Source: Pleurocapsaceae cyanobacterium CSU_1_1 (GTDB lineage Bacteria > Cyanobacteriota > Cyanobacteriia > Cyanobacteriales > Xenococcaceae). From it: DNA of 47,130 nucleotides. Position 1 is the first letter of the stretch, and each line of letters starts with the position of its first letter. Shown here one piece after another: positions 29,972-32,418 of the stretch. The DNA lies in the NCBI GenBank assembly GCA_012034765.1, contig JAAUOU010000020.1, positions 1 to 47,130 of the forward strand, given 5' to 3'. A program made the translations under genes and the position numbers. Below the pieces are notes generated by a model that worked only from the letters and a program-made list of their open reading frames with translations, was not told where the DNA came from and searched no databases.

Positions 29972-31192
29972 TTAAACTTTTTTATCTAAACGTGCTGCTG
30001 ATTCCAATGCAGCCTTGTTTCTCGCTCTTTGAGCATATTTGTGTAGGTGTTCGACGTTAATTCCGCTGAGAATGCTTAAATCTTCTAGTTCAATTCCACG
30101 CATTAACATCTCCACGCACCAAGTCTGCCTTGCTTGGTTTATTCCAGGAGACTCTCCTTGAGGAGTAAGCAGATCGTTGGTTAGATTGCGCCAGATTGTC
30201 TGTATCTCCGCTGCACTAATAGCATCATTTACATCGTTAATAAAAATTGCAGCCTGTTCATCCTTACGACTTTTTAACCATTGAATTAGAGGATTAATAG
30301 TGCTTGAGCCGTAACGAAAACCCATCACCCATTGATTAAGGGGAACTTGTCGTTCATGTCCATAATTTACTTGTAGCAGATGTTGCTGTGGCTCAACTAT
30401 AGAATGCGATCGCTCTAAATGTAAAACTTCAGTCAAAGATAAACCCGCGCCAAATAGGACATAGATCAAAGCGTATTCTTGCTTACCCGTTTTCTTGGCT
30501 TTTTTGAAGAGCGATCGCACTAAACTAGCAGGTAAATCAGCAATTTCGTCTGAATCAACTTTGACAATACTAGTTTCTGTAACCCTAATGCTTGAAGCAA
30601 AAGAACCCTGTAAAAACAAAGTTACTAAGCTTTCTAAAAAATCGTTGTGGTCTGACCAATTGATATATCCTTCTGTACTGGACTCCACAATAAAATAGCC
30701 GATCAGCAAAAAATTCAACAGATTAACGATTTGTTCTGAAGTTAAATCGCTGGACAAGTTTTCTTTGGCGATCGCTTGTTCTAAATAATCCGCCACATAA
30801 CGATTTGCCTCACTTAAACCTTTCCCTAATGCTATTCTGTTTTCGACAGGGTAATTTCCCGCTTCCCCGACAATAGAACGAACTAGATCGGGTGCTTTAT
30901 TTAAGGTACGCAAGCTTTCTTGAGCATATTCCTGTAAGAAGTCGGCTACGTTATCTTTGGCATTTGCCTGTTCGACTAAAGCATGGACTAGTTTTGCAAA
31001 AACCGCTGAATCTTGAATTACGGCTAAAAGCAAGCGATACTTGTTGCCAAAATTACGAAACAATGTGACCTCGTTCACCTGAGCGCGTTCGGCGACTGCT
31101 TTGGTGGTAGTTTCTGTTACTCCTCTTTCAGCAAATAAATCTAGTGCTGCTTCAATTAGACGTGCTTTGGTGGATTTTCGCGGAGTAGACAT
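29972..31192 (-). CDS. TetR regulator fused to a degenerate tyrosine-recombinase-like domain
   Basis: The 406-residue protein begins as a TetR/AcrR repressor: STKARLIEAALDLFAERGV and AQVNEVTLFRNFGNKYRLLL give the helix-turn-helix (about 8-54), followed by a helical ligand/dimer region to about 200. TetR proteins usually end there. Here another 190 residues follow. YALIYVLFGAGLSLTEVLHL (about 240-259) matches the GLRxxELLxL helix of tyrosine recombinases with the catalytic Arg lost, and GINQARQTWCVEMLMRG-type sequence (350-366) parallels HxLRHTxAxxLL with Arg355 kept. HKYAQR (384-389) occupies the YTH position, with Tyr386. Two His positions are lost, so recombinase activity is unlikely. It is divergent from the desaturase, whose promoter holds matching dyads. 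Confidence 0.75.
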   Translation of the reverse strand: MSTPRKSTKARLIEAALDLFAERGVTETTTKAVAERAQVNEVTLFRNFGNKYRLLLAVIQDSAVFAKLVHALVEQANAKDNVADFLQEYAQESLRTLNKAPDLVRSIVGEAGNYPVENRIALGKGLSEANRYVADYLEQAIAKENLSSDLTSEQIVNLLNFLLIGYFIVESSTEGYINWSDHNDFLESLVTLFLQGSFASSIRVTETSIVKVDSDEIADLPASLVRSLFKKAKKTGKQEYALIYVLFGAGLSLTEVLHLERSHSIVEPQQHLLQVNYGHERQVPLNQWVMGFRYGSSTINPLIQWLKSRKDEQAAIFINDVNDAISAAEIQTIWRNLTNDLLTPQGESPGINQARQTWCVEMLMRGIELEDLSILSGINVEHLHKYAQRARNKAALESAARLDKKV

Positions 31193-31365
31193 ATTACAGA
31201 TCAGAACTGATAATTTTGTTTGTCACTATTGATAGATGACGCTTAACCATAATGATTCTTTAATTATATTTATGCTGAACATTTCAAATACTTTATATTT
31301 CAACTACTTGTCCCCATTGCAACCAGAGCATTTTGCTATCAACCACAAGTTTAAATTAAGAAAAT

Positions 31366-31380
31366 GTAAGTATCGCTTGC
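31366..31380. promoter_or_regulatory. Operator-like dyad O1
   Basis: GTAAGTATCGCTTGC is an imperfect palindrome with arms GTAAG and CTTGC. Its reverse complement matches O2 at 12 of 15 positions. It overlaps the -35 box of the desaturase promoter. Inference: binding site for the divergent TetR-type regulator. Confidence 0.55.
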
Positions 31381-31405
31381 TTTGTTAAAAATAAATTGTT
31401 ACACT
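31377..31405 (+). promoter_or_regulatory. Putative desaturase promoter
   Basis: TTGCTT (31377-31382), a 17-base spacer and TACACT (31400-31405) form a plausible promoter. It is overlapped by O1 and followed closely by O2. The implied leader is about 165 bases. Confidence 0.5.
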
Positions 31406-31412
31406 GCAATAT

Positions 31413-31427
31413 GTAAGCGACACTTGC
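31413..31427. promoter_or_regulatory. Operator-like dyad O2
   Basis: GTAAGCGACACTTGC is an imperfect palindrome like O1, centred 47 bases downstream and near the expected transcription start. An additional half-site GTAAG is at 31433-31437. Confidence 0.55.
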
Positions 31428-31575
31428 AAAAGGTAAGAGACTCCGCGATGCCCAAAGAACTAAGGGAACACTAGAGTTATTAGCTTAGTAAGAGTCTTAT
31501 GGGGTTAGCGCCTAGCGTAATCGCTAAAGCTGCAAAACTCTGTAACTTTAAACATTTGAGGACGAGTTTTTAGTA

Positions 31576-32418
31576 ATGACACAGCAATTGATTGCTCCCA
31601 AAAGCCAAATATTGGCTCAACCAGAAGAGAAACTACAGCTATGCTGGGTAAACATCATTTTCTTTGGTGCTTTTCATCTCATTGCGTTATCCGCACCTTG
31701 GTTTTTCTCTTGGTCTGCTTTAGGAGTAGCAATTTTCTTTCATTGGCTCACTGGTAGTATTGGTATCTGTTTAGCATATCACCGCATTTTGACTCACCGC
31801 AGCTTGGAAGTTCCCAAATGGCTGGAACGTATTTTAGTTACCTGTGGCGCACTAGCATTACAGGGTGGCCCGATTTTCTGGGTAGCAGGACACAATCTAC
31901 ATCATGCTCATACAGAAGACAATGACAAAGACCCCTACTCGGCAAAAAGAGGTTTTTGGTGGAGTCATATGGGTTGGTTGATGTATAAACAAGACAAGTA
32001 TTTCGATTACGAGCAATATAAAAAATATGCTCCCCGCGCCGACAAAGACCCTTACTATCGTTGGATAAATAAAAACTTTATTCCTCTTCAAATTGCTTTA
32101 GGTCTGGCTTTATATGCTTTAGGCGGTTGGTCTTGGGTGGTCTACGGGATCTTTGTTAGAGCCGTAACTCTTTGGCACTGTACCTGGTGTGTCAATAGCG
32201 CAACTCACTTCTGGGGTTACAAAAACTTCGAATGTGAAGATGGTTCTCTTAACCTTTGGTGGGTCGGTATCCTCGCTTACGGCGAAGGTTGGCACAACAA
32301 CCACCACTTCAATCCTCGCGTAGCTAAAGCTGGTCAACGCTGGTGGGAAATCGATGTTACCTGGTGGGTAATTCAAGTGCTGCAAGTTTTGGGACTAGCA
32401 AAAAAAGTAGTATCCTAA
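31576..32418 (+). CDS. desC: Acyl-lipid/acyl-CoA delta-9 type fatty acid desaturase
   Basis: A 280-residue membrane di-iron desaturase. The three histidine boxes are visible: HRILTHR (69-75, HX4H), HNLHH (106-110, HX3HH) and HNNHH (240-244). Hydrophobic segments lie around 25-60 and 170-200. Lengths and motifs match cyanobacterial DesC, which introduces the first double bond in stearoyl/palmitoyl chains of membrane lipids; DesC substrates are acyl-lipids. Assignment as delta-9 is by size and box pattern, not proven. The leader between promoter and ATG is long. Divergent TetR-fusion regulator and paired dyads suggest repression in response to a lipid-related signal. Confidence 0.85.
   Translation: MTQQLIAPKSQILAQPEEKLQLCWVNIIFFGAFHLIALSAPWFFSWSALGVAIFFHWLTGSIGICLAYHRILTHRSLEVPKWLERILVTCGALALQGGPIFWVAGHNLHHAHTEDNDKDPYSAKRGFWWSHMGWLMYKQDKYFDYEQYKKYAPRADKDPYYRWINKNFIPLQIALGLALYALGGWSWVVYGIFVRAVTLWHCTWCVNSATHFWGYKNFECEDGSLNLWWVGILAYGEGWHNNHHFNPRVAKAGQRWWEIDVTWWVIQVLQVLGLAKKVVS

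Follow-up and report, generated by a model that had tools for sequence, protein, structure and literature searches.

Why should a transcriptional regulator beside a membrane-lipid desaturase gene carry the catalytic domain of a DNA recombinase? The question is raised by a stretch of 47,130 nucleotides from Pleurocapsaceae cyanobacterium CSU_1_1 (contig JAAUOU010000020.1 of assembly GCA_012034765.1), the whole of which is called the window here. An open reading frame (ORF) of 406 amino acids (aa) on its reverse strand encodes the regulator (29972..31192), and divergent from it, on the forward strand, lies the gene for a membrane fatty-acid desaturase of 280 aa (31576..32418), its conserved neighbour and predicted target. 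Taken as a whole, the regulator is probably an autoregulated TetR-family repressor of the desaturase gene that carries a dead recombinase domain. Membrane-lipid desaturation has a central part in how cyanobacteria acclimate to cold and light, and the regulators known to us there are two-component systems.

An earlier note, made from the sequence alone, had described a TetR regulator with an extra recombinase-like part of about 190 residues, divergent from a desaturase gene. The 406-aa ORF with its two Pfam matches bears out the former, and the ORF calls and the PF00487 match of the desaturase the latter. Following that note, we take the desaturase to be of the delta-9 type; one other homologue, 47% identical, is present in the window's genome.

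Architecture and predicted fold of the regulator

The regulator begins with a TetR helix-turn-helix (HTH; residues ~1-60), followed by a TetR-type helical domain (61-198), a variable linker (199-217) and the recombinase-like domain (218-404; 29975..30541, reverse strand). TetR_N (PF00440) matched residues 12-58 with 51 bits against a cut-off of 24, which places the protein in the TetR family, and Phage_integrase (PF00589) matched residues 225-390 with 32 bits against a cut-off of 27.1; PF00589 was also matched by 45 of 47 domain members. Among the best 25 of 27 NCBIfam matches, TetR and Xer models were found but none reached its cut-off, and the FabR model scored 19.6 bits with a cut-off of 151, leaving the regulator outside FabR as judged by this model.

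In an AlphaFold2 (AF2) model of the full-length regulator, built from 80 aligned sequences, the mean predicted local distance difference test score (pLDDT) was 80.6 and the predicted template modelling score (pTM) 0.50; helices span residues 63 to 197 in a TetR-like fold, and block means were 87-97 over residues 221-390. The recombinase-like domain modelled alone from 47 aligned members reached a pLDDT of 94.7 and a pTM of 0.90. When the full model was compared with the PDB by Foldseek, it matched the recombinases XerA (expectation value (E) 6.8e-7), XerH, Tn1549 Int and Cre as well as TetR proteins, TM1030 and Bacillus halodurans FadR among them. The whole-chain template modelling (TM) scores of these matches were low (0.28-0.39), as expected because the query has two domains. 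With the domain alone, 50 of the 50 matches listed were tyrosine recombinases by title, the best being XerA chains (TM 0.75-0.76 by query length). The window's domain sequence on its own found the archaeal Xer 4a8e at E 0.0063, and the domain profile did so at E 6.8e-6. The three families that a search of the 47 members listed at E 0.01 did not include DUF3504, the presence of its model in the library being unchecked.

The C-terminal part of the regulator is therefore assigned, by model and by sequence comparison, to the catalytic-domain fold of tyrosine recombinases. This similarity had been read by eye and offered as refutable by a missing structural match; it withstood Pfam, the domain model and Foldseek. 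The N-terminal core-binding domain of tyrosine recombinases was not seen in the regulator by Pfam, AF2 or alignment, the region preceding the catalytic-domain fold being TetR and the low-conservation linker.

Loss of the catalytic residues and selection on the domain

The catalytic positions R-K-H-R-H/W-Y were placed by aligning the domain to 4a8e and were counted over 80 sequences. The first Arg is lost in 77 (Ser in 70, Arg in 3), and the His of HxxR is found in 0/80, its position being taken by Glu (49), Ala (15), Asn (4) and others. The second Arg position holds Gln in 54, Arg in 25 and Lys in 1, Trp stands at the His/Trp position in 44/80, and 75 sequences have Tyr, 4 Phe and 1 His at the nucleophile position. 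One of the six residues is retained in 25 sequences, two in 44, three in 9, four in 2 and all six in none; the lack of any sequence with more than four bears out the absence of His at HxxR. The loss of the first Arg and of the His residues had been claimed in the earlier note and is upheld by these counts. On the evidence of the aligned residues, the domain is catalytically dead.

It could be argued that the domain still recombines DNA, perhaps only under certain conditions, and rearranges what lies between the two dyads of the desaturase promoter described below, as these two similar sites flank a short segment and the nucleophile Tyr is kept in most sequences. However, the first Arg and the HxxR His are gone, the second Arg survives in a minority, no core-binding domain was seen, and pairs of sites also occur at loci without the domain (L114, L159 and L175; L, G and f numbers are our codes for loci, genomes and families). 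We give this explanation hardly any credence.

The domain is nevertheless under purifying selection, which is weaker than that on the HTH and the helical domain. The median ratio of non-synonymous to synonymous substitution rates (dN/dS), from 43-44 of 47 close pairs, was 0.145 for the recombinase-like domain, 0.039 for the HTH and 0.080 for the helical domain. Mean pairwise identity over 20 non-redundant rows was 61.5% in the recombinase-like domain, 73.4% in the HTH, 57.2% in the helical domain and 16.1% in the linker. Over 47 rows, all drawn from the 80 closest loci, 32 of the 189 domain positions are invariant, and many of these fall within RQVPxNQWIMGKRYGSYTxNPL, a stretch inserted in part with respect to 4a8e.

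Distribution of the fusion and its conserved neighbour

A scan of GTDB genomes gave 127 relatives, of which the best 80 were kept as loci; the ranking was by full-length match and hence favours fused genes. The fusion lies beside the same desaturase in 80/80 of these loci, with a gap between the matches of at most 587 bp. At L050 and L053 the contig ends inside the desaturase, and L009, whose regulator has an in-frame stop, was dropped from protein counts. Full-length matches were found in 41 of 386 genomes of the phylum. Among 145 genomes of the class, the recombinase-like domain was present in 76, each time joined to the TetR part within a single frame that is open for 387 aa or more (split into two pieces in G392), and no stand-alone copy of the domain was seen in these 145 genomes, apart from a weak hit in G024 (E 0.0017) that we judged spurious. 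In further fused loci (L084-L113, L117-L127, L131 and L160-L170, some of them repeats) the desaturase is adjacent in all but L168.

The whole module was also found on the mobilizable plasmid pP742403 of Gloeothece citriformis PCC 7424 (NC_011730.1; L183), with both sites 47 bp apart, where the annotation names no more than a TetR/AcrR regulator and a fatty acid desaturase. Nearby on the plasmid, an orange-carotenoid-protein N-terminal domain protein and a light-harvesting-like protein are encoded. A viral or plasmid origin of the domain was considered and set aside: nine pattern matches in viral contigs could not be confirmed, phage records gave no match, and the sole plasmid hit is this module itself.

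Paired dyads at the desaturase promoter

Two dyads lie either side of the desaturase promoter TTGCTT-N17-TACACT (31377..31405, forward strand), which has an extended -10 (TG at 31397-31398, one base before the -10). The first predicted operator, O1 (GTAAGTATCGCTTGC, 31366..31380), overlaps the -35, and the second, O2 (GTAAGCGACACTTGC, 31413..31427), lies at the expected transcription start. This arrangement had been pointed out before, and it is confirmed by the coordinates and by its conservation in the regulator-desaturase gaps of the window and the 80 loci (n=81). The consensus GYAAG-N5-CTTRC occurs twice in 81/81 of these gaps; one of the two dyads carries one mismatch at L051, and a one-mismatch match between the two sites of L057 was set aside. 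The spacing from start to start is 47 bp in 55 promoters, 46 in 17, 48 in 4, 52 in 2 and 43, 51 or 53 in one each, so that 76/81 fall at 46-48 bp. A TANNNT follows the TTGC of O1 after 16-18 nt in all 81 and after 17 nt in 76, with TG before the -10 in 79, and O2 begins 3-13 nt past it. Conservation of O1 and O2 upstream of the adjoining desaturase homologues, the absence of which would have spoken against the note's interpretation, was thus found.

A search of the window for the joint O1/O2 pattern with up to two mismatches gave 4 matches against 0.74 expected, and 0 of 100 shuffles reached 4. Two of the four, however, are the sites from which the pattern was written, and another is O2 on the other strand, so that the real evidence is the conservation together with a blind scan of the 145 class genomes. 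With the two sites required to be 25-40 bp apart, the scan gave 69 places, spread over 68 genomes, and the reversed pattern used as a control found 0 in the same 145 genomes. Of these places, 66 are within 2 kb of a fusion gene, and the remaining three belong to unfused orthologues in G011 and G456 and to a second locus in the window's own genome. Ten fused genomes lack a strict pair (G170, G392, G396, G415, G416, G433, G446, G458, G473 and G478); in all of these but G415 (L168), two sites are present at a distance of 46 to 85 bp, neither of them with more than one mismatch. A generic sigma-70 scan did not list the TTGCTT-N17-TACACT promoter because TTGCTT matches TTGACA at three of six bases and the scan requires four.

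The dyads lie near the regulator's own gene in 81/81 regions, where binding of the protein is predicted. In 51 of the 80 loci O1 lies 8-14 bp away from where the aligned regulator match starts (173 bp in the window), and the regulator therefore probably restricts its own production. A mirror promoter that would serve the regulator from a -35 in O2 was sought as a reverse NANNNT at 16, 17 or 18 nt, which occurred 9, 12 and 17 times, or in 38 of 243 tests against about 25 estimated from base composition; TANNNTA, which could serve both strands, was present in 40/76. Two loci, L160 and L161 (G393 and G409), have the tandem order regulator, dyad pair, desaturase. As the pair stands between the 3' end of the regulator and the desaturase in these loci, it belongs with the desaturase promoter; no exact site was found before the regulator in the stretch fetched from either genome.

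Operators over a -35 and a start site are in positions typical of repression, and the dyads over the -35 and expected start therefore suggest that bound TetR dimers should repress the desaturase. The regulator could instead be an activator, given that TetR-family activators exist and that FasR is named an activator in an NCBIfam model among the matches listed. The placing of O1 on the -35 and of O2 on the expected start in the promoters compared argues against activation, which we consider improbable.

Unfused orthologues and the evolution of the fusion

An unfused orthologue stands beside the desaturase in 9/145 class genomes and has the same dyads, as a pair in three and as one site in six. 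One of them, L114 in G011, shows no remnant of the recombinase-like domain downstream, although other members of its family, f18, carry the domain. The others are the eight sampled members of family f27, none of which is fused: G448 (L175) and G456 (L159) each carry a pair with a spacing of 49 bp, and G177, G332, G406, G422, G431 and G440 have only the site over the -35, with a further exact motif at the far end of the desaturase gene in G431. The frame of the unfused regulator gene of G456 (L159) looks broken.

As unfused orthologues have the same dyads, the recombinase-like domain did not create the two-site layout. The link between the extra domain and the two sites implied in the earlier note was not supported, since the unfused L114, L159 and L175 keep the pair and fused genes with sites 58-85 bp apart exist (L121, L163, L167, L169 and L170). 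The domain was also considered as a ruler of O1-O2 spacing; this was rejected, as the spacing stays at 47-49 bp in the three unfused loci and the geometry of the promoter itself remains fixed (17-nt spacer in 76/81).

A tree was calculated from 69 TetR parts (56 from fused genes, 8 from unfused genes and 5 from paralogues, with L159 left out), in which the bootstrap did not settle. The unfused f27 genes lie near fused f28 and f53 genes on long branches, and G011 does not group with f27 but shares an unresolved fork with fused genes. A topology that joins the fused genes and L114 in one clade, with f27 outside, was not rejected by the approximately unbiased test (p-AU 0.44); one with all fused genes as a clade without L114 gave p-AU 0.084. 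The simplest reading, which fits these results but is not proven by them, is that the dyads and the TetR protein may have come first and that the domain was gained once and later lost in G011.

The absence of the domain in G011, together with the highest dN/dS of the three domains, could mean that the domain is a tolerated passenger of an old fusion, weakly constrained and with no specific job. However, a dN/dS of 0.145 is still strong purifying selection, the invariant positions are numerous (32/189), and the fusion has been kept in 76/145 genomes, which makes a mere passenger quite unlikely.

A third dyad within the regulator gene

A dyad that resembles O1 and O2, absent from the earlier note, lies over codons 50-55 of the regulator, in the part that encodes its DNA-binding region, as a candidate third site, O3 (ACAAGTATCGCTTGC, 31030..31044, reverse strand). 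Its frequency was compared with that obtained when synonymous codons were shuffled within each gene. With up to two mismatches, 34 non-redundant fused genes gave 23 matches at O3, where 5.6 were expected, and no other position along the gene stood out as strongly; codon 353 came second with 15 against 6.7, and no position exceeded 11 in 100 shuffles, which were scored in one of three frames. With up to one mismatch the counts were 13 against 1.0 for O3 and 0 against 0.4 for codon 353. In 20 further fused genes there were 11 matches against 3.7 expected, six of them exact (L123 and L160, without an anchor, were dropped). The unfused orthologues gave 2 of 9 against 2.1 expected and the paralogues 2 of 5 against 1.7. 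O3 is therefore over-represented in fused genes and not in unfused ones, which is suggestive only, the sequences being related and the unfused sample consisting of two lineages. A perfect third site is found in L162, L164 and L165, where O1 has one mismatch, and likewise in L120 and L126, where the promoter pair is intact. The O1-O3 distances are too clustered to judge helical phasing.

O3 bears on the possibility that the recombinase-fold domain works as a second sensor or binds a partner, without any role on DNA, its old active site having been rebuilt for a ligand or a protein. The clustering of invariant residues in RQVPxNQWIMGKRYGSYTxNPL, partly an insertion, would suit such a module, as would the low net charge of the domain and the sites of the same kind in unfused orthologues. 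Against it, the over-representation of the intragenic dyad in fused genes alone suggests a difference at the level of DNA. We regard a sensor or partner module as a serious contender, if a doubtful one.

Other sites in the window's genome

The genome of the window contains nine matches to the pattern, as two pairs and five singles, with about 4.4 expected by chance (an estimate for a 20-bit pattern in 4.6 Mb). Four of the singles (L134, L140, L141 and L142) are inside open frames, and the fifth, L137, is 55 bp ahead of a frame judged HesB/IscA-like by eye. A wide regulon was rejected on this basis.

The second pair (G000:C86:14487-14552; L158, L177) has its sites 51 bp apart, is accompanied by a similar promoter, and precedes the gene for a 142-aa protein that is hydrophobic by eye, downstream of genes for a small TetR protein and a thioesterase. 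Of 20 genomes searched, this gene was held by four, the window's own included, and the pair was present in all four (also L144/L178, L157/L180 and L179, the last with one mismatch in one site). The 142-aa protein gene is a candidate second target.

Proposed mechanism

We propose that a cyanobacterial TetR-family repressor took up a tyrosine-recombinase catalytic domain, which was then disarmed. TetR dimers would bind O1 and O2, and the bound protein, over the -35 and the expected start, would keep RNA polymerase off the desaturase promoter. If DesT and FabR are a guide, the state of the membrane lipids, presumably that of acyl lipids, would be signalled by a ligand bound in the TetR helical domain, and this would release the repressor. 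The recombinase-fold domain would no longer cut DNA and could be a non-catalytic accessory for higher-order assembly or an extra DNA contact, for example with O3. Such a role for the domain is our tentative choice, short of an even chance when set against any other role, with ligand or partner binding a close rival. In a bolder and unlikely form of the proposal, domains on O1, O2 and O3 would join regulator dimers into a synapse-like loop that locks both divergent promoters, the fusion and O3 having co-evolved.

Several points weigh against this proposal. L114, whose regulator is an unfused 236 aa, keeps the desaturase and both sites with a spacing of 47 bp; conversely, L168 in G415 has a fused gene with no desaturase in the 7 kb fetched and only one site upstream, with one mismatch. 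By dN/dS the recombinase-like domain is the least constrained of the three, and its mean net charge of +1.65 gives no strong hint of DNA binding. The mirror promoter that would serve the regulator is weakly supported by the motif counts. Finally, the count in the 145 class genomes is a fairer measure of fused against unfused genes than the 80-locus scan.

Comparison with known systems

TetR repressors divergent from desaturase genes are already known, as are recombinase domains in transcription regulators of animals. DesT of Pseudomonas aeruginosa and FabR of Shewanella oneidensis are, according to PMC4273635, TetR-family repressors divergent from an acyl desaturase gene. The window's regulator resembles them in that a TetR-family regulator is divergent from a fatty-acid desaturase gene (80/80 kept loci; tandem in L160 and L161; no desaturase in L168), and in its predicted role as a repressor. 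It differs in its extra domain of about 190 residues and its conserved dyad pair, and in being far below the cut-off of the FabR model, DesT not having been compared separately. To our knowledge, DesT and FabR carry no recombinase domain.

With the Xer-type recombinases (XerA, XerH and Tn1549 Int), the regulator shares the catalytic-domain fold and alignable HxxR and Tyr regions; unlike them, its domain is without the catalytic residues, has no core-binding domain that could be seen and is fused behind a TetR protein. A second role, in pyocin control, has been proposed for XerC of P. aeruginosa (PMC9431673), but there the recombinase is intact, whereas here a dead domain is fused within a regulator.

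No paper on a TetR-recombinase fusion was recognised in the literature searched, which consisted of listings and the starts of abstracts and had most subscription papers and preprints outside its coverage. As both parts are known singly, the fusion appears to be a new combination of known kinds. It would provide a dedicated, sequence-predicted desaturation switch, with predicted operators, in scores of genomes, and relatives that are naturally unfused or have a single site offer a direct way to probe what the extra domain does.

A further comparison is with the DUF3504 domains of animals (KCTD1, ZMYM2/3/4, QRICH1 and WOC). According to PMC3212892, these are domesticated Crypton tyrosine recombinases without most of the catalytic residues, and many of the host genes are transcriptional regulators with other DNA-binding domains. 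Both cases show a catalytically depleted recombinase domain retained in transcription regulators; the difference is that DUF3504 is found in animals and with other partner domains, and we assume that the two arose independently. If the proposed mechanism is true, the cyanobacterial regulator would offer a parallel, in bacteria, to the domesticated recombinase domains that animals have in transcription regulators.
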